Part shown: positions 1 to 46,796 of the stretch, one piece after another
Layout of the letters: every line of letters begins with the position of its first letter
Numbering within the stretch: position 1 is the stretch's first letter
Notes under the pieces: model-generated
What the model saw: the letters and a program-made list of their open reading frames with translations, nothing else
Database searches by the model: none
Told to the model about the DNA's origin: nothing
Position numbers and translations under genes: made by a program
Source of the DNA: Hyperoplus lanceolatus
Lineage: Eukaryota > Chordata > Actinopteri > Uranoscopiformes > Ammodytidae
Length of the DNA stretch: 64,000 nt
Direction: 5' to 3'
Assembly (NCBI GenBank): GCA_026929865.2
Contig: CM049402.1
Coordinates: forward strand, 10,815,001 to 10,879,000

Positions 1-1696
1 AACTTCAAACATTTACTTGGGGAGGTAATTGAGGATGACATATGAAGAGAGGCTAGACTGTTCGCAGAGTGTAATTGGAGGTTAATATTCTGTAATTTGT
101 CTCATCTCAATATGGGACAGATTGGTGGCCAGGGGAGGGGAGATAATCAGGTGAACCAATCACTGTAGTCTGTCTTTAAATTACTGTTGAACTGCTGGGC
201 GTGATAAGAAAAGCTGATGTGTAGATGAGAGCAGCACAACATTACTAAATGCAACACCTTTGATTGTCTTTCTTTATTTTGTATTCATTTGTAGATCAAA
301 AGCCATGTCAGTCAGGCAATTAAATTATCATGCAGTGTGCATGCCTATATTCCTATCCATATACTATATAGATGGATGGATAGATATATGGATGGATGAA
401 TGTCAACGTTATATGGGGCTAATACTCTAAGGAAAGCTATAGTTGTGACAACATGTTGAATAACAGGTAGAACTACCACCTGGTTTTGTTAACTAGACAA
501 CACTTTTATTCCAAAAGTTTACAGTAAACATTATTAAAATGGTAACAGGATACTGACAAAAACTTTTCAGGAGTTTTATTCCCGTGGCAAAACTAAATTC
601 TGCAGAATGCAACTTTCTCCTCCGCCCACAGTAGTGGACGGGGGAGAAAAGTCACCACCCTGGAGAGCTCCATAGCTGCTCCCAGCAGCAGGATCAGGAC
701 CTCTGTGCAAAGTTTTCACAACACTACAGCTAATGTAAAACAGAGCTGGAAGCCTGCAATTTATTTGAGTCATCACAAAACTGTAAAACGGTCCCTGCAG
801 CAAAAGCGAACACTGGCATTAAATGTGTGCAGTTCAATATTTGGTTCTCTAAATGTGCTCAACTGAATTTGCTGTTGTGGACAAAATGATCAAACCATAG
901 ACAATGTTATGGTTTGTACTCTTCTACGTTTATGGTTTTTTGAATGATTTAGAAATGGAGAATAGAGCAAAAGATTTAAGGAGAAGGGAATACGATTCAG
1001 TGATGTGTTGACTTGCCAGTGATTATAAGGTTAAGTCTTTTAGGCTTTTTCCTGTAGGAGTCTAGAATGGTTTAAATGAAATTGACATGAGGAGGAGCTG
1101 AAGCAAACGAGGAGACTGAATGAAAAAAAGCAGATGATTTGGACCATTATCAATGTCTACCCTTTTGTCCCTTCCCATGATTCCTCTCTATAGTAGATAT
1201 ATGGGAGGTCTTTAAGAGCTCCTCACCAATCAAAGCAGTGTTCAGTGTGGTGAGAGTAAAGATGGAAAAGTAGTGCAGGGGTTTGTTACTACAGAACAAC
1301 ACTGTGGCCCGTAGTGACAGATCTATCAGCTGTACGGACTGTTTGAAAGCTGCAGAGGTGCCAAAATACAGACAAACAGATTTAGCCACTAGCTGGTGAA
1401 CATTTGGAGCATTCAGAAGAAGAGAGACATATGTATTTCAAATGTTAGTAAAAAACAAAAAAAGAGCTAAAGGACGAGTGCATATTGGATCTGTGACTTC
1501 ACAGGAAGACAGACAGCGCCTTCTGTTGTCGAGATATAACGATTGTGACAACCAACCCGTGTAACATATAACCCCTTTCTCCCCTACGTGGTAGCTAAGA
1601 AGAGCCATTTATGCCTCTTTCTACAACCCTGGCAGCAAGAATGGCTATTGGAAGATTTGTTGTCAAGCGGACGGTGATGTGTTTCTGTATTCACCT
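1..1696. other. No gene seen
   Basis: I see no coding signal, RNA gene or transposon end in this stretch. Reading frames are short and without recognisable motifs. The only structure is an imperfect GATG/GATA tetranucleotide run at about 371-402. Confidence 0.6.
371..402. repeat. Imperfect (GATG/GATA)n microsatellite
   Basis: GATG and GATA tetranucleotides alternate over about 32 bases, interrupted once by ATAT. This is a short simple repeat. Confidence 0.7.
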
Positions 1697-1744
1697 ATTG
1701 CATGTACAGTACACTCTCAGATTGCATGTACAGTACACTCTCAG
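1697..1744. repeat. 24-bp tandem duplication
   Basis: Two identical adjacent 24-bp units occupy 1697-1720 and 1721-1744. Each starts ATTGCATGTACAG and ends CTCTCAG. They abut the GTACC-palindrome repeat immediately downstream. Confidence 0.9.
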
Positions 1745-1757
1745 AAAATAAAGGACA

Positions 1758-1858
1758 TCTTTGTACCTTTAGAGGTACAATGGCATGTCACTGAGGCAGT
1801 ACCCTCAAAAGGTACAGCTGTTGTAGCCTTGATCTTGGGTACAAATTTGTACCTTATA
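1758..1858. repeat. MITE-like repeat with GTACC/GGTAC palindromes
   Basis: Three near-palindromic blocks follow one another: GTACCTTTAGAGGTAC (about 1763), GTACCCTCAAAAGGTAC (about 1799) and GGGTACAAATTTGTACC (1837-1853). I recognise this GTACCTTT/AAAGGTAC pattern as recurrent in fish genomes. No terminal duplication can be identified, so the boundaries are approximate. Confidence 0.45.
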
Positions 1859-1960
1859 TTGTTCTGCCTGTTTCAATATGTCTGTAAGCTGGTTCAATAA
1901 CATGCTCATCCAAGCAGGAATCACACAAACATGCCCATTTAAGCACAACACTCTCTCTCT

Positions 1961-1961
<1 letters not shown>

Positions 1962-2031
<70 letters not shown>
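1962..2031. repeat. (CA)35 microsatellite
   Basis: Uninterrupted CA dinucleotides. The reading frames crossing it on both strands are artefacts of the repeat. Confidence 0.98.
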
Positions 2032-2033
<2 letters not shown>

Positions 2034-4063
2034 TTACAATCACACATACAAGCGGTTGGCCTTGCTCCCTGCCTGCCAGGTTTGACTGACTGCAGTAATC
2101 TCAGGTTGGAGCAGCTGCCTTGTAGTCATTAAAATGTCAGCCGTGTCCTGACATTTACTTCAGTTCTCAAATATGTGGATGAGGGAAACAGACCAATTCT
2201 CTAACAAGCAAATCCAATCACTGCAAAGAGAGAAGTGCAAGGACGCATACAACGTCACTGTTCTGTACCCACTCCCTTACAAGGTCCCATGTTGTATGGA
2301 TTCCAGTCCAGCTTACAATGTCCTTGAGGTTTGAGCAGCCTTCTTCTAAAATAAGCTCTGATTTTTTTTTTCTTCGTCATTTCCATTATTCTCTGCTCCG
2401 TCTCATATGTAATGGTTTTGGGGAGCTGCCCAGAGATACAAGAGGGAAAGAAGACTCCTTGGGAGCAGATAAGAGTTCAGCTGTCGGCGAGGACAATTTC
2501 CTTCTTTGGGTCTTGTCTATCGCTGTGCCCAACAGATTTTTGAGGTTGTGATTGTAATGCATAATCTGGTGAAGACAGTCAATGGGAGGATTACATATGG
2601 CAGGCAGCGCCACATTATCACAGGCAGTCCAGAGGGGCACAGGGGAATCGGACTGGCAAAGTATCACAACCAGTGCAGACAGTACCCAGATATTGGCACA
2701 TTTAGTCCCCAAATCGGAATTTTCAGAGTTGACTCTTCTAACTGATGCATCAACCTGTGTGCTCAAGGATAATGTTTTTCCTTGTTTAGCTTCCCAGCCG
2801 CCACATTATACACTCCAAAAACATTCTTCATTCTACAGGTTTTGCTACAGTTTTAATTTCATTATGAATTCCACACTGGCAGTGAAATAAAGTTTCCTGG
2901 GTCATAGGTCATATATCATGAAGTCATTGCACACCTAAAGCCTCTCTCCTGCTGTTAAGCCAAACACTCCAGTCAAAATGGACGATTGGAGGAGATTGTA
3001 CCAGTATCTGGTCCGAAAGAAGATAAGCAAACTTACCTTACAATTCATCAACAGAGCTGAGAGCGTTGAAGCAGCAAATGGTCACGCTGCCCTGAGACAG
3101 ACTGTTATGTGTACTGTAGCTCAGCTAAAAAGAAAAAAAAAACTGTGGTTTTAAGACTTACAAAATGCAAGTCGAGTTGGGGTCCTTCCCAATGATGACT
3201 TGAATCATAGACATTTGGGGAAATGTCCTACTGCAGTCACTGTAGAGCTAGAGTTTATTCTTGGTAAATATTCATCAATCACCATATATGAAACGTGTCT
3301 CGTTTGGCAGGCAGGCAATGGTTGCTACAGCGAGGCATCGTTAAATTGTGGTCAATCTTGCTGATGGCAGAAGAAACCATTATTGTGCAACTGGATTGTA
3401 ACAAACACTGGATTGTAACACACACTAACAAGACATGACTTGCATTTTAACTAACAAGACATGACTTGCATTTTACCTACGTCTGCATTGACTGAATGTC
3501 AAGGGAAAACTGGATGGCTTTATTTGAATGTGAATGGTGGAAAACTTTGATTTGTTCATGACATATCTATTCTTATTTCTTCTTTTATTTGTTTTGTATG
3601 TCTTTTTTTGTTTGTGATATACAGTATGTATTTATATTTTAGCTAGCAAATTCTCCCAACAAAAATTGTAACATGAACAGAAATCCATGGATCCTTAAAA
3701 AAATTGTAAAAGGAAGTGCTTCTTTAAAAACATCTTAAACAAAAGGTAGTTTTGAAAATGTGCATGGAATCATCAACTGAATTTTGTAGAATAAACACAC
3801 ATTATAGGTATATACCTTCATATCTTTTCACTGAAAAGCAATCACCCACAGCACATTACCCTGCCACGTATAATCATTACTGCAATATGGAGTCTGCTGA
3901 CACACACTGAAACAATGGTGAGAAAAGGAAGAAAATAGAAGCAATAAGGCATTGTTCAATTGAGCCAGCAGACTGCTCAAGGGAGATAAAGTCAATTAGA
4001 ATCTAATCAAACCAAGAGGATGCCATGCATTTGATTATGGGAGAGCAGAGAAGTATGTGCATG

Positions 4064-4066
<3 letters not shown>
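2032..4066. other. No gene seen; one 26-bp tandem duplication
   Basis: No convincing gene. A 126-codon minus-strand frame at 2386-2766 needs a TTG start and has no recognisable domain. A perfect tandem duplication sits at 3424-3475. Confidence 0.5.
3424..3475. repeat. 26-bp tandem duplication
   Basis: Two identical adjacent units occupy 3424-3449 and 3450-3475. Each starts ACTAACAAGACATG and ends GCATTTTA. A shorter duplicated motif, CTGGATTGTAACA, lies just upstream at about 3391-3419. Confidence 0.9.

Positions 4067-4095
<29 letters not shown>
4067..4095. repeat. (GT)n microsatellite
   Basis: About 14 GT units. The short frame across it is spurious. Confidence 0.95.
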
Positions 4096-4097
<2 letters not shown>

Positions 4098-4887
4098 GGT
4101 ATGTTTGTGAGAGAGAGCGATGTAAAGCTTCAAATTCAGTTGATTTAGTACCACCATGCACTAAGGCACAGAACCAAAGTCAACAACAAAAAGCAGTCCT
4201 AAATGAAGCTGTGCAGCGATAGTGGTGTCTAAACAATGCTGAGCCAGGCCTTTTAGGAGGTAAACAACACACACATTCTGGTTCATAAAACAAAGAATAA
4301 AGGGTAAGTGTCTGTTGAAGAGATTGCCATTGCTAATTACCTGTATATTAACTTATAAATCGAGTGGAACACTGTCTAAAGAAAATAAACAGACTAGAAG
4401 TTGTATTAAAGAGATATTTACAGTCAGTTGTAAATCTGCATTGGGTTTGGAGGCCGGCCGTAAATCCCTGGCCTGCATATCTCTGGAAGAAACAGGGTGC
4501 CTGCAGCCAGAATGGCTTCCCAGTCTCATTGCTGTGTTAAAATGAACAGAGGGCGGAGTTAAATCATGGTGTCTAGCTACATGCCAAACTCCAGCGGCAA
4601 TCGGGACATTTACATCTGTGCCAAAGAATCAGTCTTATGTACCATTGGCGTTGTGTTTTCCAGCTGCTGGTTAACATTATGTAAATCAAATTAAATTTTC
4701 CCTAAAGATTGAGATGGTGTTTGTTTCCGGCAAGGTGGCTCACAATGAACATTTAATACTGTAGGAAACCCTTCAATGTTTTCCAAAACCTAGGTTATGT
4801 TAGAATTAATTTATTATAAGGGCAGGCATCTCCTCAGCTGGTATAACTCATCTGTATTCCAGAAAGGAATAAAACATATATATCATA
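4096..4887. other. No gene seen
   Basis: No coding, RNA or transposon-end signal was found up to the 9-bp target duplication at 4888. Confidence 0.5.
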
Positions 4888-11866: not shown

Positions 11867-14049
11867 ACAACAATTTAAAACATTCAGATCAATTGAATGA
11901 AAGAGACAATAGCCTAATTAAAACAGTTACACGTGTAGAGGGGCTGATTCAAAATAATGTTTTTAAATTGGTTAACAGTTATGAGTGTATTTATTTTAAT
12001 TGTATGTTGTAGGCTGTTCCAGGAGTCAGGGGCACTATGGCTAAAAGCGGTTTTACCAAGCTCAGACCGGGCATAGGGAAGATATAACATGAGCATGTCA
12101 GTTAAGCGGGTTTGATAAAGCCCATCTGAAATAACCAGCATTTCTGTCAAATAGAGTGGTAGCTTTCCAGTCAGAGCTTTATATATAAAAATATGCCAAT
12201 GTGCATCACGTCTCTCCTTAAGGGAGGACCACCCAACCTTTTCATATAAAACACAATGGTGTGTATCATAAGCATCTCCTGTAATGAATCTCAAAGCAGA
12301 GTGAAATACAGAGTCTAGGAGTTTAAGGCATGAACGAGATGCATGCCGATAAACCACATCACCGTAATCAAGGACAGACATAAAAACTGCCTCAATAATC
12401 CTTTTCCTACTGAACAACGGGAAGGTGGCTTTATTCCTATAAAAATATCCAATCTTTTGTCGCAGACGACAGACAATATTTTTTATGTGATATGTAAAAG
12501 AGAGTTTTTCATCTATCCAGATGCCAAGATATATTCAGTGACTCTTTCAATATGAAATCCATTATTTGTGTGAATAATAAGATCATTAAAATGTGTAATT
12601 CTTGCTCTGGAAAAACACATATATTTTGTTTTTTCTGTATTAAGGACAAGCCTGAGATCCACTAGACAGTTCTGCAGGGTGTTAAAAGAGCTCTGTAGGT
12701 TCTGAACAGATTGTTGCACTGAATCAGAAATGCAATACAGTACAGTGTCGTCCGCATACAAATGGGCATGGCAGTTTTGTAGTGATGAAACAATGTTATT
12801 AATGTAAATTGTGAAAAGGACTGGACCTAAAATTGAGCCCTGCAGAACACCATTTGTAACTGTTAAAAACTCAGTTTGGTAGCTTCCCAGTTTTACTGAC
12901 TGCTGTCTATCAGAGATATAGTCCCTAAACCAGCTACATGCAGAATAATCAAAACCAATTTCATGCAGCCTCTCTAAAAGCAAATGGTGATCTAAAGTAT
13001 CAAATGCTTTTGACAGATCAACAAAAAGTGCTACACAGTGCATTTTGTATCGATAGCTGTAACAATGTTGTCTAAGACCAAAGTGACAGCAGATACGGTA
13101 CTGTGGCCTGCCCTAAAACCAGATTGAAATGGACTCAAAATGGAAGCACTGGATAAAAAGGTTTTCAACTGAGTATTAATGACTGATTCTAGAATTTTTG
13201 CCAGGCATGGGAGTTTGGAAATTGGCCTGTAATTATTGAGATCACTTTTGTCACCCCCTTTATGTAATGGAATGACGTGAGCTTTTTTCCAGACTTTAGG
13301 AACAATACCAGAGGAGATGGAAAGATTAAAAATATGGGTTATTTGTTTTGATATGATAAGTGCAGAGAGATTTATTGAAAATGGGTCCAAATTGTCCTCT
13401 CCCATGTACTTCCTGGGGTTGATGGCAAGAAGCGCATCTACAACAATACTTGTTGGAACTTGAACAAGGCTGAAAAGAGGAGTTTTAGAGACAGGTTGTA
13501 TGTTATTTTTATTTCTGGTGGTGGAAGGCGTAGATACTCCATTGTGAAAGAGTTTACCAGCAGCTATAAAGTGTTTATTGAAAGCTAAACCAATTCTGAT
13601 CATTTATTTTTAATTGACTGGGAACAGTGCTAGAATTATTTTTGTTATAATTCACAGCCTTCCAAAATAGTGCAGGGTTGGAGTAGCAGTTGGAAATTAG
13701 TTTGAGGTAGTAATCTGATTTAGCTTTCCTAACCATGGATATGCACCTATTTTTGATTTGTCTGAAAGCAGTCCACTTAGAGTTTTCACCAGAGCGTCTA
13801 GCTAGGGACCATGCTTTATTTCTCTCTGCAAATACAGTATCTCACAAAAGTGAGTACACCCCTAACATTTATTCAAATATTTCATTATATCTTTCCATGC
13901 GACAACACTGAATACATGACACTTTGATACAATGTCAAGTAGTCAGTGTACAGCTTGTATAACAGTGTACATTTACTGTCCCCTCAAAATAACTCGACAC
14001 ACAGCCATTAATGTCTAAACTGCTGGCAAGAAAAGTGAGTACACCCCTA

Positions 14050-14898
14050 AGAAAAAAATTCCAAATTGGGCCCAAAGTGTCAATATTTTGTTTTGCCATC
14101 ATTATTTTCTAGCACTGCCTTAACCCTCTTGGGCATGCAGTTCACTAGAGCTTCACAGGTTGCAACTGGAACCCTCTTCTACCCATTCATGACGACATCA
14201 AGGAGCTGGTGGATATTAGAGTCCTTGCGCTCCTCCATCTCCCGTTTTAGGATACCCCAAAGATGCTCAATAGGGTTTAAGATTGGAGACATGCTTGGCC
14301 AGTCCATAACCTTTACCCTCAGCTTCTTTAGCAAGCCAGTGGTCTTTCGGAGGGGTGTTTGGGGTCGTTATCATGTTGCAGTACTGCCCTGCGGCCCAGT
14401 TTATGAAGGGAGGGGATCATGCTCTGCTTCAGTATGTCATAGTACATGTTAGAATTCAATGAACTGTAGATCCCCAGTGCTGGCAGCACTCATGCAGCCC
14501 CAGACCATGACACTCCAACCACCATGCTTGACTCTAGGCAAGACACACTTGTCTTTGTACTCCTCACCTGGTTGCCGCTCCACACTCTTAACACCATCTG
14601 AACCAAATAAATGTATTTTGGTCTCATCAGACCACAGGGCATGGTTGCAGTAATCCATGTCCGTAGTCTGTTTGTCTTCAGCAAACCTTTTGTGGGGTTT
14701 CTTGTGCATCATCTTTCGAATAGGCTTCCTTCTGGGACGACAGCCATGCAGACCAGTATGATGCAGAGTGCGGCGTATGGTCTGAGCACTGACAGGTTGA
14801 CCCCCCACCCCTTCAAGCCCTTCAGCAATGCTGGCAGCACTCATACGTCTATTTTCCAAAGCCAACCTCTGTGTACGACGCTGACCATGTGCACTCAA
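14050..14898 (-). pseudogene. Tc1 transposase, lacking the N-terminus
   Basis: Read on the minus strand, it starts abruptly at the arm boundary with the second half of the DNA-binding domain (ALENRRMSAASIAEGLEG, SAQTIRRTLHHTGL, GCRPRRKP). The first catalytic aspartate follows in HALWSDETK. The frame is open to a stop at 14449. The rest (second aspartate, NPIEHLWG glutamate) continues in other frames into the left arm, with stops. The first roughly 60 residues, including the primary helix-turn-helix, are absent. Confidence 0.8.
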
Positions 14899-14920
14899 CC
14901 TTCGTAAACTGGGCCGCAGG

Positions 14921-15301
14921 GTGGTATTGCAACATGATAACGACCCCAAACACACCTCCAAGACGACCAGTGGCTTGCTAAAAAAGCTGAGGGTAAAGGT
15001 TATGGCCTGGCCAAGCATGTCTCCAGACCTAAACCCTATTGAGCATCTTTGGGGCATCCTCAAATGGAAGGTGGAGGAGCGCAATGTCTTTAATATCCAC
15101 CAGCTCTGTGATGCTGTCATAAATGGGTGGAAGAGGGTTCCAGTTGCAACCTGTGAAGCTCTAGTGAACTACATGCCCAAGAGGGTTAAGGCAGTGCTGG
15201 AAAATAATGGTGGCCACACAAAATATTTACACTTTGGGCCCAATTTGTACATTTTTTCTAAGGGGTGTATTCACTTTTGTTGCCAGCAGTTTAGACATTA
15301 A
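14921..15301 (+). pseudogene. Second, inverted Tc1 transposase C-terminal half
   Basis: This open frame reads LQHDNDPKHTSK (second catalytic aspartate), then SPDLNPIEHLWG (catalytic glutamate), and ends within the terminal repeat after VLENNGGHTKY. It is the same protein region that lies on the minus strand in the left arm. The two copies differ at several codons, so the palindrome is either old or was built from two different Tc1 copies. It lacks the first aspartate and the DNA-binding domain. Confidence 0.8.
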
Positions 15302-16203
15302 TGGCTCTGTGTCGAGTTATTTTGAGGGGACAGTAAATTTACACTGTTATACAAGCTGTACACTGACTACTTTACATTGTATCAAAGTGTCATTTATTCA
15401 TTGCTGTCCCATGAAAAGATATAAAGAAAAATGTGAAGAAATGTGAGGGGTGTACTCACTTTTGTGAGATACTGTACATTGGACAATTCATTTGTGAACC
15501 AGGGGTTTGATCTATTTTTTACTCTGTGCTTTTTAAGGGGTGCATGCTTGTTCAAAATGGAGGAGAAAGTTTTGGTGAAAAATTCTAAGGCCAATTCCAC
15601 ATCAGATATTTCACTTGTGAGATGAATGTCACTTTGATAGAGTTCATTTAAAAATGCTTGCTCGTTAAAACCTTTAAAATTACGCTTAATAATGATTTTG
15701 GGTTGAGATTTTTTCAGATGAATACTTCTGATACAGGCCACCGGGCAGTGATCACTGATTCCAAGCTCAAAGACACCAGCAGAAACTATTTTGTTGCTTT
15801 GATTTGATAATATTAAATCGATCAAAGTTGATTTTGCTGGGTTTTTTAGATTAGGTCTTGTGGGCTCTGTTATTATTTGTGTAGGGTTTAGGTTGCTACA
15901 GATTTCTTTAAAAGGTTCAGAGGCACCAGAAAGCCAGTCAATGTTACAATCACCCATCATAATGACCTCTCTATTTACATATGGAGAGATTAAATGTGCT
16001 AGCTCACTCAAGGAGCTAGTTACCGCTGAAGGGGGCCTGTACACACCAATTACAATAACACAATCATTGGACAATAAAGACAATTCCAAAGCAATTAATT
16101 CAAAGCAGCTTCGAACAGAGACAGCATGTAGTAATGATACAGAATAATGTGATTTAACATAGACAGCCACTCCCCCACCCCGTGTGGTCCTGTCTATTCT
16201 GAA

Positions 16204-17098
16204 TAGGGTTGCAAAGGGGTGGAAAGTTTCCGGTAACTTACCGGAAAGTTTCCAGAAACTTTCCATGGGAACTTTCGCTCGGGAATTTTGGGAATATTCA
16301 AAATTGGAAATTATAGGAATTAACAAAATGGCGGTAATTTAAATGATTTTTTTTCATAACCAACCATAAATCTAAACTTTTAAACACTATGTTTGGTCAT
16401 AGGCAGATATCCATGCAAAATAATACAATCAAAAAACATTACATTTGAACAGATTTATTTGTAAGAAGAACTTTATCAAGTTGATTATTTTATGAACAAT
16501 CAATAATTTCACTGAACAACAAAAAGATGAATGTTGAGTAAATTATTACTCATCTGTCTGACCCCACCCATTCAATAAATAAAGTCAAATGCCCCCCCCC
16601 CCCCCCCGCCCCACCATGTGATGGAGGAATGCACAGAGCATGTAGGGGACGTGGCCTCAGTACCCCTGCAGTAGAATGTGCTATGTGCAATTTGCCAAGT
16701 GTACTTGCATAAAATCTGGTTGTTTTAGTCAAGATTATGCTAAAATATATTGTCCCCAACTATATTTAAAATCAAAGCTTAAGCCTCTGTAAACCTGGTC
16801 TAGTAAAAATCAATTTATGATATCAAGTTGGGTATCTCAATAAACTTAAAAAAAAATGTGATTTGAAATTAAATGTTCATAAATATATTAAAACTTAGTT
16901 GAAAAAACTGCTTTTTACAGTCTAGAACGTTTGCCTGGACTGAAAATTTAGAACTGAACTGAGAATTTAGTGCATTTGGGCTGCTTTAAATTGAGTAAAT
17001 TCCCGTTTATTCCCGTTAATTCCCAAAATTCCCTTAATTCCCGTTAATTCCCATGGAAAGTTTCCAACTTTGAAAATTCCCGGAATTTTGCAACCCTA
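16204..17098. mobile_element. Non-autonomous hAT (MITE)
   Basis: The terminal repeats are TAGGGTTGCAAA and TTTGCAACCCTA, with the exact 8-bp duplication ATTCTGAA at 16196-16203 and 17099-17106. The subterminal regions are full of GGAAAGTTTCC and AATTCCC motifs, plausible transposase-binding repeats. A C-tract of about 15 lies near 16592. It has no coding capacity, and it interrupts the inverted LINE endonuclease. Confidence 0.92.
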
Positions 17099-20249: not shown

Positions 20250-20562
20250 GTCCATAGTTCCCCCTTCTCTATAATTCTTCCCTGTCTCCAAAATGGCAGC
20301 CTGAGCCCACTGCTTGTTAGATGATTTTCGCGATCTTTTTCGCGATCTTTTCAACTTCCGGTCGTAACAACATGGACATATACATCTCATAGAGCATAAG
20401 ATTCTGAGCATTTCAAAAAAAAAAGTAAGTCTCTACCCCATTCCTGTGATGAGTTATGGTCGTTTAAAGAAACCACCGAAATTAGCTAAAACGGCTAAAG
20501 CTAGCTAATACTCCGCTAGCTAGCGTTAGCTCTATAGTGTTCTGTCTTTTTTTCACCGCATC

Positions 20563-21050
20563 ATGTCATCGGCACTCACCCAGACAGATCCGGAGCTTCT
20601 CCTCCTGAGATCCGAGCTCAAGTCAGTGGAGAGTCTCATTCACGATCTCCTCCAGCGGCAGTCCTTCCTGGTCTCCAAATTAGCTGTGCTTGAAAAAGCT
20701 CCTCTTTCAAGTTCTCAGGCACCGGTTAGCGGCGTTTCTACTGCTTCTGCTGCTCAGCCTCCCGACGCTGCATGGACGTCTGTTGTGAGGAGGGGCAGAC
20801 GATCTTCTACACGATCTTCTCATCCTCTTCCTCCTCCTCTGCTCTCCTCTCCATCTCCTCCTCTGCTCTCGCTGGATCCTGTGTTGACGCGCAATCCATT
20901 TGCTCCGCTGGAGGTGCTATGTGGAGCTGCTGAACCTGCGGCTCGTGTTGCCGGCTCTCCATCTGCTTCGCCGGTCCAGACCTGCTCCAGGGTGGCACGG
21001 GGACGTCGGGGTTCCACTTCCCAGTTTAGATGTCGAGATCGCCAAGTGGT
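20563..21050 (+). pseudogene. LINE ORF1, N-terminal part
   Basis: ATG at 20563. Residues 10-45 form a leucine-heptad coiled coil (LLLLRSELKSVESLIHDLL), as expected for multimerisation of LINE ORF1 proteins. A serine/proline-rich, low-complexity linker follows. The frame stays open to 21162, but the esterase continues in the next frame from about 21030, so one frameshift separates the parts. ORF1 would total about 365 residues. The protein likely binds LINE RNA in the cytoplasmic particle. Confidence 0.75.
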
Positions 21051-21662
21051 GCCCCCGATGTTGACATCCGCTGTACGGGTGAGGCTCTCTCTCGCGGCTC
21101 TGCCCTGCCCTCACCTCCTCCCCTCTCATCGAAGCTGTCTCTCTACTGTGGGAGCTGCTTGAATCGCCAACCTGAGATCCTCATCATCGGTGACTCTATT
21201 GTCAGATTTCTTTGTCTCCCTGGTGCTTTCACCTACTGCCTCTCTGGAGGAAAATCATCTGACATTATGGAGCTAACACCTGCCCTCGTCGCCCTCCACC
21301 CTACTGCCCACACTGTCATCCTGCATGTTGGAACTAATGATGTAATGGATAAAAGGTCATACCAACTGTTTGACAATCTACAGAGTCTGGCCATCACCCT
21401 GGAGAGCCTGGGGAAATTCTGTATATTTTCCGGCCCCATTCCCACGTCATCCAAAAGCCCTGAGCGCTACAGCCGTCTTCTGGATTTCCATGAACGACTG
21501 GAGTCCTGGTGCTCGGGCAACTCTCTGGGCTATATTAACAACTTTGACTCATTCTCTAGACACACACTTAAATCTGACGGCCTCCATCCCAATGCCAAAG
21601 GTATTAAAGAACTTACTAATCACTACATTCATCACATCGCATCTTGGCATAATTTGGACTGA
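21030..21662 (+). pseudogene. LINE ORF1, SGNH/GDSL esterase domain
   Basis: The domain has GDSI (serine codon 21195-21197), GTND (asparagine codon 21336-21338) and DGLHPN near the end (aspartate 21576, histidine 21585). These are the catalytic and oxyanion residues of SGNH hydrolases. ORF1 esterases of this kind are known from CR1 and L2 LINEs, including zebrafish L2; their cellular substrate is not settled. All four key residues are intact. The domain ends at a TGA (21660) that is in frame with the start of ORF2. The only visible fault is the upstream frameshift. Confidence 0.85.
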
Positions 21663-24600
21663 TATTTACCACAGCACAACCCTACCAAAGCATCCCCCAT
21701 TAAAAAAGATCTCCCCAGGGGTCCTGCTGAAGTATCCCCCAATTTAACTCATATCAACACCTCAAATTGTCCTTCAATCACAGACATCACTAAAAAAGAT
21801 CCCCCCGGGAGCCCTGCTCAACATGAATTATACTCCCCTTCCATCTGTGCTGCAAACCTTCCTCCAGCTCTGGACATCACACCTGACTGTCCTCCCTCAC
21901 TTCCAACGGCCCATCCACCTGCTGCTTCTGACGTTGGCTCCCTCTACAGGCACATACCTGTTTTGTATGACCCTGGAAAACAAGCAATGCTTCCTAGCTG
22001 TAAGCTAAATTCACCACAAATTCTTAAATCAAGAAAGGGCTTGGGTTTTCTACATTTAAATATTAGAAGTTTATTGCAGCATGATAAATTAGACCACGTA
22101 AAGATTTTAGTGTCCCAGGCAGACCCAGATGTTTTGATTCTGACTGAATCCTGGTTAAAGAAGAGTACAGATGACTCTATTGTGGCAATACATGATTATA
22201 ACTTATTCAGAATAGACAGAAACACTAGGGGTGGGGGAGTAGCTGTATATGTTAAATCCTGTTATTCTGTAACACTTTTACATGCCGTCTCTGTTCCAAA
22301 TTGCTTTGAATTTATCGCGCTAGAATCATCTTATCTTATCGTCAAATGATTGTTTTGTTGTAATTGGTGTGTATAGGCCCCCTTCAGCTGTAACTAGCTC
22401 CTTAAACGATCTAGCACATATGCTCTCCAGTTATGTAAATAGAGAGGTAATTGTGATGGGTGATTTTTACATTGACTGGCTTTCTGGTGCCTCTGAATCT
22501 TTCAAAGAAATCTGTAGCAACATTAATCTTACACAATTAATAACTGAGCCCACAAGACCTAATCTAAAAAACCCAGCAAAATCAACTTTAATAGATTTAA
22601 TCTTATCAAATAAAATAAATAAAATAGCCTCAGCTGGTGTCTTTGAGCTTGGGATTAGTGATCACTGCCCAGTGGCCTGTATCAGAAGTATTCATTTAAA
22701 AAGATCTCAACCTAAAATCATAATTAAGCGTAATTTTAAAGGTTTTAACGAGCAAGCCTTTTTAAGTGATCTCCATCATAGTGACATTCAACTGACAACG
22801 CAAATTTCGGATGTTGAGTTAGCCTTAGACCATTTCATCAATACTTTCACCTCACTTATAAACAAGCATGCGCCCCTAAAAAAACATAGAGTAAAAAATA
22901 GATCAAACCCCTGGTTTACAAGTGAACTGTCTGATTTATTTTCCGAGAGAAATAAAGCATGGTCTGTAGCTAGACGCTCTGGAGATAATACCAATTGGAC
23001 AATTTTTAGACACCTTAGGAATAAATGCACAGCCATGGTCAGGAAAGCCAAATCTGAATACTACCTTGAATTAATCTCAAACTGCTACTCTAACCCTGCA
23101 CTATTTTGGAAAGCTGTGAACTATACTAAAAAAAATTCAAGCACAGTTCCCACTCAGATCAAATTAAATGGTCACACTCTCAATGATCAAAAAGAGATTG
23201 GCTTAGCTTTTAATAAACATGTTGTAGCTGCTGGTCAACTCTTTCAGAATGGAGGATATAGGCCTTCTACCACCAGTAGTAACGTACCGCCTGTCTCTCA
23301 AACTCCTATTTTCAGCCTTGATCTTCTTCCCACAAGTGTTGTTGTAGATGCGCTCCTCGCCATCAACCCCAAGAAGTACATGGGAGAGGACAATTTGGAT
23401 TCGTTTTCAATCAAGCTTTCGACACATATAATATCAAAACAAATTACCCATATTTTTAATCTTTCCATCTCCTCTGGAATAGTTCCTAAAATCTGGAAAA
23501 TAGCTCATGTAATTCCTTTACATAAAGGTGGTGACAAAAATAATCTTAATAACTACAGGCCAATTTCCAAACTCCCATGCCTGGCAAAAATTCTAGAATC
23601 ACTTATTAATAATCAGTTAAAAACATTTCTAACTAGTGCTTCCATTTTGAGCCCATTCCAATCTGGTTTTAGGGCAGGCCATAGTACTGTCTCTGCTGTG
23701 ACTTTGGTTGTAGACAACATTGTTGCAGCATTAGACAAGAAGAAGCACTGTGCAGCACTTTTTATTGATCTTTCAAAGGCCTTTGATACTGTTGACCACC
23801 ATTTGCTTTTACAGAGGCTTTATGACATTGGCTTTGATCAGTCTGCATGTAGCTGGTTTAGGGATTATCTCTCTGATAGACAGCAGTCAGTTAAACTGGG
23901 AAGATACCAATCTGAATTCTTAACTGTTACAAATGGTGTCCCACAGGGCTCAATTTTAGGTCCAGTTCTTTTCACAATTTATATAAATAACATTGTTTCA
24001 TCGCTAAAAAACTGTCACGCCCATCTATACGCTGACGACACAGTACTGTATTGCATTTCCGATTCGGTGCACCAATCTATTGAGAACCTACAAAGCTCTT
24101 TTAATACTCTGCAGGACTGTCTAGTAGACCTCAGGCTTGTTCTTAATACAGACAAAACCAAATATATGTGTTTCTCCAGAGCAAGAACTACAAATTTGAA
24201 TGATTTTAATGTTTTTACAAAGAATGGATTTTTAATTGAAAGAGTCACAGAGTACACATATCTCGGCATCTGGTTAGATGATAAACTCACTTTTAATTTC
24301 CATATAAAAAATCTTGTTTGTCGACTACGACAAAAAATTGGCTATTTTTATAGGAACAAAACCACCTTCCCTTTATTTAGTAGGAAAAGGATTATTGAGG
24401 CAGTTGTTATGTCTGTCCTTGATTACGGTGATGTGGTTTACCGGCATGCATCTCATTCATGTCTTAAACTCCTAGACTCTGTTTTTCACTCTGCTTTAAG
24501 GTTCATCACAGGAGATGCTTATGACACACACCATTGTCTTTTATATGAAAAGGTTGGGTGGTACTCCCTTAAAGAGAGACGTGATGCACATTGGCATATT

Positions 24601-24876
24601 TTTATTTACAAAGCCTTGACCGGGAAGCTTCCTCGTTATTTAACAGAAATGTTGCAAATTTCAGATGGGCTTTATCAGACCCACTCCACTGACATGCTCA
24701 TGCTTTATGTCCCACAAGCCCGGTCTGAGCTGGGAAAGACAGCTTTTAGCTTCAGTGCCCCTGACTCCTGGAACAACTTACAGCAACAAATTAAACTAAA
24801 TACCTTCATATCCTTTAATCAATTTAAACAAACTATCTTAAATCTGCCAAACTCTACCTGTAACTGTTTTAATTAG
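21663..24876 (+). pseudogene. LINE ORF2, endonuclease and reverse transcriptase
   Basis: The frame opens directly after the ORF1 stop; the first in-frame ATG is at 21984. The APE-type endonuclease covers about 22030-22720: LHLNIRSLL, LTESWL, then a one-base frameshift near 22335, GDFYIDW, and SDHCPVA (22657-22677). The reverse transcriptase covers about 23500-24330, with LHKGGDKNNLNNYRPIS, FIDLSKAFDTVDHH, GVPQGSILGP and YADD (24028-24039). The C-terminus has SAPDSWNNLQ and ends TCNCFN. Together these nick target DNA and copy RNA in the nucleus. The usual asparagine of GDFN is a tyrosine here (22468-22470), expected to harm nicking. After the frameshift, 835 codons are open. Confidence 0.9.
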
Positions 24877-35899: not shown

Positions 35900-37542
35900 C
35901 ACTCAACACAAATATAAATGCAACACTTTTGTTTTTGCTCCCATTTTTCATGAGATGGACTTAAAGATCTAAAATTCATTCCAGATACACAATATTACCA
36001 TTTCTCTCAAACATTGTTCACAAATCTGTCTAAATGTGTGATAGTGAGCACTTCTGCTTTGCTGAGATAATCCATCCCACCTCACAGGTGTGCCACATCA
36101 AGATGCTGATCTGACATCATGATTAGTGCGCAGGTGTGCCTTAAACTGTCCACAATAAAAGGCCACCCTTAAATGTGCAGTTTTGTCTCACATCAAAATG
36201 CCACAGATGCCACAAGCATTGAGGGAGCGTGCAATTGGCATGCTGACAGCAGGAATGTCAACCAGATCTGTTGCTTGTGCATTGAATGTTCATTTCTCCA
36301 CCATAAGCCGTCTCCAAAGGTGTTTCAGAGAATATGGCAGTACATCCAACCGGCCTCACAACCGCAGACCACGTGTAACCACACCAGCCCAGGACCTCCA
36401 CATCTAGCAGGTTCACCTCCAATATCGTCTGAGACCAGCCACTGAGACAGGTGCTGAAACAATTGGTTTGCATAACCAAACAATTTCTGCACAAACTGTC
36501 AGAAATCGTCTCAGGGAAGCTCAACTGCATGCTCGTCGTCCTCATCGGGGTCTTGACCTGACTCCAGCTTGTCGCCGTAACAGACTTGAGTGGGCAAATG
36601 CTCACATTCGATGGCGTCTGGCACGTTGGAGAGGTGTTCTCTTCACGGATGAATCTCGGTTTACATTGTTCAGGGCAGATGGCAGACAGCGTGTGTGGCG
36701 TTGTGTGGGTGAGCGCTTTGCTGATGTCAATGTTGTGGATTGAGTGGCCCATGGTGGTGGTGGTGTTATGGTATGGGCAGGCATCTGTTATGGACGAAGA
36801 ACACAGGTGCATTTTATTGATGGCATTTTGAATGCACAGAGATACCGTGATGAGATCCTGAGGCCCATTGTTGTGCCATACATCCATGAACATCACCTCA
36901 CGTTTCAGCAAGATAATGCACGGCCCCATGTTGCAAGGATCTGTACACAATTCTTGGAAGCTGAAAATGTCCCAGTTCTTGCATGGCCAGCATACTCACC
37001 GGACATGTCCCCCATTGAGCATGTTTGGGATGTGCTTGACGTATACGACATATACGGCGTATACGACAGTGTGCACCACTTCCCACTAATATCCAGCAAC
37101 TTCGCACAGCCATTGAAGAGGAGTGGACCAACATTCCACAGGCCACAATTGACAATCTGATAAACTATGCGAAGAAGATGTGTTGCACTGCATGAGGCAA
37201 ATGGTGGTCACACCAGATACTGACTGGTTCTGAGTCCCCAGACCCCCAATAAAGCAAAAAAATGCACATTTCAGAGTGGCCTTTTATTGTGGACAGTCTA
37301 AGGCACACCTGTGCACTAATCATGATGTCAGATCAGCATCTTGATGTGGCACACCTGTGAGGTGGGATGGATTATCTCAGCAAAGCAGAAGTGCTCACTA
37401 TCACACATTTAGACAGATTTGTGAACAATGTTTGAGAGAAATGGTAATATTGTGTATCTGAAATGAATTTTAGATCTTTAAGTCCATCTCATGAAAAATG
37501 GGAGCAAAAACAAAAGTGTTGCGTTTATATTTTTGTTGAGTG
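35900..37542 (+). mobile_element. Full-length Tc1-like element with 280-bp inverted repeats
   Basis: The ends are CACTCAACACAAATATAAA and its near-complement, with TA at 35898-35899 and 37543-37544. The long inverted repeats run about 35900-36181 and 37263-37542, nearly identical. Inside is one transposase gene on the plus strand with two nonsense codons and a frameshift. This is a common fish Tc1 layout. Confidence 0.93.
36198..37160 (+). pseudogene. Tc1 transposase, inactivated
   Basis: From ATG 36198 the paired-like DNA-binding domain is clear: ALRERAIGMLTAGMSTRSVA, then RPRVTT. The catalytic triad is D in LFTDESRF (36648-36650), D in QDNARPHVA (36912-36914) and E in MSPIEHVWD (37017-37019). 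Thirty-four residues lie between the last two, the Tc1-type D34E spacing. All three are intact. Two in-frame nonsense codons interrupt it: TAG at 36405-36407 and TGA at 36741-36743, where family members usually have arginine, consistent with CGA-to-TGA decay. A run of 9-bp units (37038-37065) then disrupts the frame before the C-terminus. The enzyme cut and pasted DNA at TA sites; this copy cannot. Confidence 0.9.

Positions 37543-46377: not shown

Positions 46378-46796
<419 letters not shown>

Follow-up and report, generated by a model that had tools for sequence, protein, structure and literature searches.

How a DNA transposon becomes a palindrome, and whether the palindrome can then move through a genome, is the question raised by a locus in the fish Hyperoplus lanceolatus. 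Within a stretch of 64,000 nucleotides (contig CM049402.1 of assembly GCA_026929865.2, positions 10,815,001 to 10,879,000; hereafter the window), an initial annotation had placed a palindromic Tc1 element at 13835-15474, flanked by TA dinucleotides, and both the coordinates and the flanks hold. The element very probably represents a non-autonomous palindromic Tc1 family which originated by inverted duplication from one lineage, spread through transposase supplied in trans, and exchanges sequence between its two arms.

The arms of the window copy pair over 512 nt at 91% and a further 61 nt at 92% complementarity. Aligned to each other they are identical at 525 of 577 positions with a single 1-nt gap, and so do differ, as had been claimed; the perfect outer ends, given as 20 bp, in fact comprise 31 identical bp with the TA counted. 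The loop and the left arm form a single colinear degenerate gene on the minus strand, running from about residue 65 to its end, with the domain HTH_Tnp_Tc3_2 in the loop (E 3.7e-13, in the frame 14449-15168 of the minus strand) and DDE_3 in the left arm (14179-14367, minus strand). The right arm contains DDE_3 on the plus strand (14885-15301), matches the Sleeping Beauty transposase SB100X (5cr4, E 8.7e-26), and duplicates roughly the last third of the protein, residues ~232-340 of 340. The structure initially described as two inverted catalytic halves facing each other is therefore a palindrome, but one composed of a near-complete degenerate gene body and one inverted last third, and its arms read outward, the left on the minus and the right on the plus strand. 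Similarly, of the breakpoint first placed at 14409/14899 the edge near 14898/14899 stands, whereas 14409 is merely the end of the left arm's mirror partner. The first ~64 codons are gone and the frame is broken, leaving no intact transposase frame such as an autonomous Tc1 possesses; the TA target duplication and the remnant of a DDE transposase related to Tc1 and Sleeping Beauty assign the element to Tc1/mariner. The window copy sits inside a long interspersed nuclear element (LINE), whose parts lie at 11914-13834 and 15477-16338 on the minus strand, with the RVT_1 and endonuclease parts on opposite sides of the insertion; candidate places for this LINE number at least 719 genome-wide.

A search of the 806.7-Mb host genome (527 contigs) with the DNA of the full element gave 2,163 first-look candidates. 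Of these, 40 were scored, and all of them, the window copy included, span 1,638-1,640 of the 1,640 bases at 98-100% identity; one extra copy, at 91% identity, lies beside one of these. A 30-base pattern across the junction, with up to 3 mismatches allowed, occurs at 1,500 genome places (725 and 775 by strand) and its reversed control at none, which excludes chance as the source of the palindrome. A pattern across an 11-bp deletion in the loop was found at 1,595 places (control 0), and the 31-bp tip, in either of its variants and with at most 2 mismatches, at 3,311 (control 0). This amounts to about two tips per palindrome, leaving little room for another large family sharing these ends. Among viral contigs, neither the junction pattern nor the 31-bp tip had a match. 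The search for further copies with the same breakpoint had been suggested at the outset, together with two outcomes that would undo the reading, namely a copy without companions and an assembly error; both are ruled out by the junction count, the sampled loci and the empty-site matches described below. The palindrome is confirmed as a real structure and as one copy of a high-copy family.

Palindromic loci were sampled at 48 places, comprising the best 8 of the full-element search and 40 zero-mismatch junction places on contigs C1 and C2, the latter being biased toward young copies. Full length was retained at 44 of the 48, while L041, L045, L059 and L077 were not full length and were excluded from the consensus (consensus A). 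Counting substitutions only, the 44 copies lie 0.43-1.78% from this consensus, with a median pairwise difference of 2.19%, and TA is present at both ends in 43. Five pairs are free of substitutions, and in two of them (L005/L006 and L052/L055) the copies are letter-for-letter identical at different loci with different flanks; among the full-length copies of C1 and C2, 8 of 36 have a substitution-free neighbour and 18 of 36 a neighbour at no more than one substitution. Moreover, the flanks of the window copy, joined by one TA, match uninterrupted LINE copies over the whole 302 bases at 97-99% identity in 40 of 40 scored places (719 candidates). The 1,500 junctions, the identical copies at different loci and the empty site demonstrate that the rearranged form is itself mobile, as initially supposed. 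Some copies are close together, e.g. two in L079 and two on C1 at 10.18 Mb, as spread by segmental duplication or an assembly artefact could produce, but near-identical copies that end exactly at TA within different flanks, and uninterrupted LINE copies at every scored place, leave that explanation a negligible probability. If the zebrafish rate of PMC7913693 is applied (4.13e-9 per synonymous site and year), a distance of 1.2% from the consensus would correspond to ~3 million years and an identical pair to under ~0.1 million years, both figures serving as illustration only.

Conventional relatives were sought with the N-terminal part that the palindromes lack. This query identified ten places of one family (L009-L018), the remaining matches reaching at most 51% identity, except for short or split ones; a short match, L080 on contig C16, is an eleventh conventional copy. 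All ten places have TA at start and end. Substitutions relative to L010, itself counted, amount to 0-0.18% in eight copies, 0.8% in L017 and 4.6% in L016. The full 340-aa frame is intact in four of the ten sampled copies (L009, L010, L012 and L013), open with a short altered stretch in L014, and broken in L011, L015, L016, L017 and L018. The conventional transposase matches SB100X (5cr4, E 9.7e-74), and its residues 5-55 match the PAI subdomain of Sleeping Beauty (2m8e, E 2.9e-05). A 324-bp 5' segment was found at 15 genome places, all of which were scored: 11 at 98-100% and the others at 84, 82, 78 and 78%. The genome thus holds ~1,500 palindromes against 15 conventional places. Two of the more distant ones, L083 and L084 (84 and 78%), were considered as a closer conventional parent and rejected, being L010-like with many 1-base gaps: L083 (C8, 26.67 Mb) has 19 mismatches to L010 and 121 gap positions, and L084 (C20, 22.72 Mb) 25 mismatches and 188 gap positions, an excess suggestive of sequencing errors left uncorrected or of some unusual deletion process. 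L016 (C4:8047492), the single copy at 4.6% from the L010 group, has a palindrome-like 5' tip (TACAGTATC).

Comparison with L010, a conventional Tc1 of 1,646 bp whose frame begins at base 377, defines the structural change. The palindrome is colinear with L010 from position 568 through the 3' end, and its opposite end is the inverted L010 stretch 1069-1646. In total 567 bp were lost, comprising the 5' terminal repeat and the ~64 codons which cover the PAI subdomain (the loss of the first DNA-binding part had been noted correctly), and 578 bp were gained; with the 11-bp loop deletion and a 1-nt gap, the palindrome measures 1,644 bp including both TA. The breakpoint partners have ~1 bp in common at the join, and GAAG occurs on both sides of it, offset by one base. 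The features of the window copy are collected in the table.

Table. Coordinates of the palindromic Tc1 element and its parts in the window.
Feature	Position	Strand	Remarks
Palindromic non-autonomous Tc1 element	13835..15474	- (strand of longer gene remnant)	1,640 bp between TAs
Left TA target site	13833..13834		Basis: sequence and empty-site match
Right TA target site	15475..15476		Basis: sequence and empty-site match
Left arm	13835..14409	-	Original 3' end: degenerate last part of transposase gene and terminal repeat
Loop	14410..14898	-	Gene remnant, ~residues 65-231; 11-bp deletion relative to L010 and L016
Breakpoint	14898..14899		L010 position 568 (gene body) joined to L010 position 1069 (inverted 3' end)
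Right arm	14899..15474	+	Inverted extra copy of 3' end, ~residues 232-340 and terminal repeat
Left terminal repeat region	13833..14075		243 bp with TA, the length alignable to L010 terminal repeats
Right terminal repeat region	15234..15476		243 bp with TA, alignable to L010 terminal repeats
Left outer 20-bp direct repeat	13844..13863	+	0 mismatches to L010 repeat
Left inner 20-bp direct repeat	14029..14048	+	1 mismatch to L010 repeat
Right inner 20-bp direct repeat	15261..15280	-	1 mismatch to L010 repeat
Right outer 20-bp direct repeat	15446..15465	-	0 mismatches to L010 repeat

The palindromes comprise at least two subfamilies. Subfamily B, represented by six loci picked by a variant of the deletion pattern and by a second copy in L079, lies 6.3-8.6% from consensus A. 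The six loci carry the 11-bp loop deletion by selection; the L079 copy, found unselected, has both this deletion and the same junction. The junction is run through in five of the six, L086 being without 85 bp around it. The L079 copy was considered as an 'old' copy, a reading which was rejected because L090, of the same kind, is only 0.1% different, and B is consequently a sister subfamily. In L079 the B copy (1500-3049) has one end cut off, and a full-length A copy (3060-4703) lies 10 bp away in the opposite orientation. Neither the A nor the B consensus has an ATG frame of transposase length, the longest being 223 and 234 aa in arm sequence read antisense. When the arms of the two consensus sequences are compared as a quartet, 10 sites group the arms within each subfamily, 1 groups corresponding arms and 0 support the third arrangement, and 40 pairings of single copies (10 from A with 4 from B) give respective means of 13.6, 2.0 and 0.3. 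If A and B had turned palindromic independently, this grouping would need no conversion between arms; such a double origin is nonetheless very unlikely, as the identical low-homology junction is present in both subfamilies, the unselected B copy shares the loop deletion, and runs of derived bases on both A arms show exchange directly. Specifically, the states at the 34 sites where the A arms differ occur in blocks in which one arm carries the other's bases. When all 19 distinct state strings are taken together, a non-consensus state is shared at 69 neighbouring sites, where permutation gives 20.0 on average (0 of 10,000 permutations), and without the largest related group at 28 against 8.6 (0 of 10,000); since the strings are related by descent, these permutation figures are no exact probabilities. 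If L010 and L016 are used to polarise the changes, runs of derived bases are seen on both arms, for instance at left-arm positions 259, 261 and 266, each of them in 13 of 44 copies. These sequence patterns point to conversion or crossing-over between arms, either in a single copy or among copies. In L064 the arm-specific bases around left-arm positions 216-277 are swapped between the arms, as a double crossover or an inversion inside the palindrome would give, and in L085, a B copy, the arms are 97.9% identical, compared with 92.9-95.4% in three other B copies, probably through recent arm-to-arm conversion.

Exchange of this kind bears on where the two arms came from. They differ by 5.9% in consensus A and by ~9% in the window copy, whose own changes are included, and the initial annotation had suggested on account of such differences either the joining of two Tc1 copies or an old snap-back event. 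Set against L010 and L016, the arms are grouped with each other by 24 sites; 2 sites place the left arm with L016 and the right arm with L010, and 0 do the reverse; without the terminal repeats the numbers are 10, 1 and 0. Coding changes private to one arm fall on codon positions 1, 2 and 3 in the ratio 8/11/7 (third position 7 of 26), showing no third-position excess, as expected of a dead gene. Grouping and codon positions together favour an inverted duplicate from one lineage, made by snap-back of one element or by repair of the 5' repeat on a 3' repeat with the tract running inward. A comparable scheme is proposed for Galileo in PMC3573991, where one terminal inverted repeat (TIR) would be repaired on the other along an inward-running tract and copies would undergo conversion among themselves. 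Two different Tc1 copies joined in opposite orientation, with the transposase then using both outer 3' ends, would also explain arms that differ, and conversion could have wiped out a larger earlier difference; in this respect exchange blurs the origin of the arms and weakens the case for derivation from one lineage, because it would render them sister-like even after such a joining and so lowers the weight of the quartet. The joining of distinct copies is improbable all the same, given the 24 sites against 2 and 0, private changes distributed as if they had arisen after the death of the gene, and the B copy of L079, whose arms, at 29 comparable sites that distinguish the A arms, are equal at 25, show the A difference at 1 and have other states at 3. 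Two copies from one lineage would look alike, and joining in that restricted sense is possible; it is not needed to account for the arm differences, and a snap-back fits at least as well. The terminal repeats were also considered as evidence that both ends are of 3' type, which is not supported: at the 7 sites separating 5' from 3' repeats in L010 and L016, the four palindrome repeats are all 5'-like at 4, all 3'-like at 1 and mixed at 2.

The end repeats bear on the source of the transposase. In the A consensus, the B consensus and L010 alike, the four 20-bp repeats have the same sequence and stand at positions 12 and 197 from each end, so that each end has an inner and an outer repeat at fixed spacing, as in the Sleeping Beauty-type ends for which the term inverted repeat/direct repeat (IR/DR) is used. 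Copies vary least at the tips (0.14 and 0.29%) and little in the right inner repeat (0.77%), compared with 1.25% for the loop and 1.8-2.4% for the arm bodies. Shared repeats and low tip variation fit cut-and-paste by a transposase supplied in trans, and a candidate source is the conventional family, whose copies are nearly uniform and include intact frames; most likely, to judge from the repeats, the palindromes were spread by the enzyme of these few relatives. Several observations weigh against this account. Among copies the left inner repeat, at 2.21%, varies more than the loop (1.25%) and shows no special conservation; in the window copy, each of the inner repeats carries a single mismatch. 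Between the conventional family and consensus A, the regions compared diverge by 7.6-9.2% and one tip base is different (TACAGTATG in the former, TACAGTATC in the latter), so that the spread may for the most part have been due to a closer relative now extinct. Moreover, movement is read from sequence comparison, and mobilisation in trans from the shared repeats.

The course of events was probably as follows. A conventional Tc1, carrying an inner and an outer repeat at either end, would once have undergone an inverted duplication: while its 5' end was being repaired or replicated, copying would have switched to the 3' end of the same element or of a sister copy, and 578 bp, terminal repeat included, would have been copied and joined, nearly without homology, to the gene at position 568. 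The product retained the usual length and four repeats resembling binding sites at the usual spacing, such that transposase provided by another element would be able to cut and paste it. It amplified to ~1,500 junction-bearing copies in at least two subfamilies, and its arms exchange sequence in conversion-like tracts.

Palindromy may itself be an advantage, matched ends and subterminal arms making a better substrate than the parent and conversion keeping the ends matched, although we regard this as speculative and rather unlikely. It would account for the excess of palindromes (~1,500) over conventional places (15) and hint at why palindromes are so frequent among Tc1/mariner derivatives. In its favour, PMC4505599 reports that Mos1 and Mboumar-9 work best in vitro with two identical preferred ends, and its authors mention a similar result for Sleeping Beauty. 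Against it, PMC2642840 describes full palindromy as unnecessary for the mobility of miniature inverted-repeat transposable elements (MITEs), PMC3573991 terms long terminal repeats a transposition handicap, and in the present family the terminal repeats do not mark both ends as 3'-type. The reason for MITE palindromy is left open in PMC2642840.

Parts of this arrangement have precedents. Among the closest likenesses are Tc6 and Tc7 of Caenorhabditis elegans, palindromic, transposase-less relatives of Tc1 that probably move by means of its transposase; for Tc7, the subject of a paper titled 'Tc7, a Tc1-hitch hiking transposon', transposition was reportedly detected. The present family shares the palindrome without coding capacity, but its arms and loop keep most of the transposase gene, its length equals that of the conventional element, and it has ~1,500 copies with measurable arm exchange. 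Sleeping Beauty-type elements resemble it in their ~240-bp end regions with inner and outer 20-bp repeats, whereas the palindrome is without the PAI region and without an intact frame. With MITEs of Tc1/mariner origin it has in common that it is non-coding, palindromic, present in many copies and putatively moved in trans; at 1,640 bp and with a readable gene remnant, it exceeds their length of ~80-500 bp as given in PMC2642840. Internal sequence duplicated in inverted orientation beside the terminal repeat is likewise a feature of Foldback-like elements and of the 2RT form of Galileo in Drosophila mojavensis, where, according to PMC3573991, copies devoid of transposase have taken such sequence up into their terminal repeats (TIR1-F1-F1-TIR2). 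Galileo belongs to the P superfamily, with target duplications of 7-8 bp (PMC4168063), whereas the present element has Tc1 domains and a TA target; 38 of 170 Galileo copies are of 2RT type (PMC3573991), compared with a single junction common to ~1,500 copies here. Among the papers listed by literature searches aimed at a palindromic Tc1 of fish or at elements like it, with subscription journals, Repbase and Dfam outside their range, none describes the present family to judge by title and start of abstract. Palindromic Tc1 relatives without transposase (C. elegans) and the inverted recruitment of internal sequence (Galileo) are already known; what differs here is the combination of full parental length, gene sequence in both arms, four shared repeats, ~1,500 copies, two subfamilies and arm exchange. 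Here an ordinary transposon can be seen turned into a palindromic parasite while the parent gene is still readable; the same genome retains a few conventional relatives, of which some have intact frames, and origin, amplification and arm exchange can all be read from it.

Elsewhere in the window, an Rfam search gave 0 matches. A 245-aa open stretch at 36258-36995 on the minus strand had no Pfam match at E 0.001. A second LINE occupies 20530-24876 on the plus strand, with an 850-aa open stretch containing endonuclease and RVT_1, and the frame just upstream of it has a weak match to a GDSL lipase family (E 7.1e-07, under the curated score). Several long AC/TG dinucleotide arrays lie within 39589-60742, the largest reaching 57.5 copies at 46681-46795.

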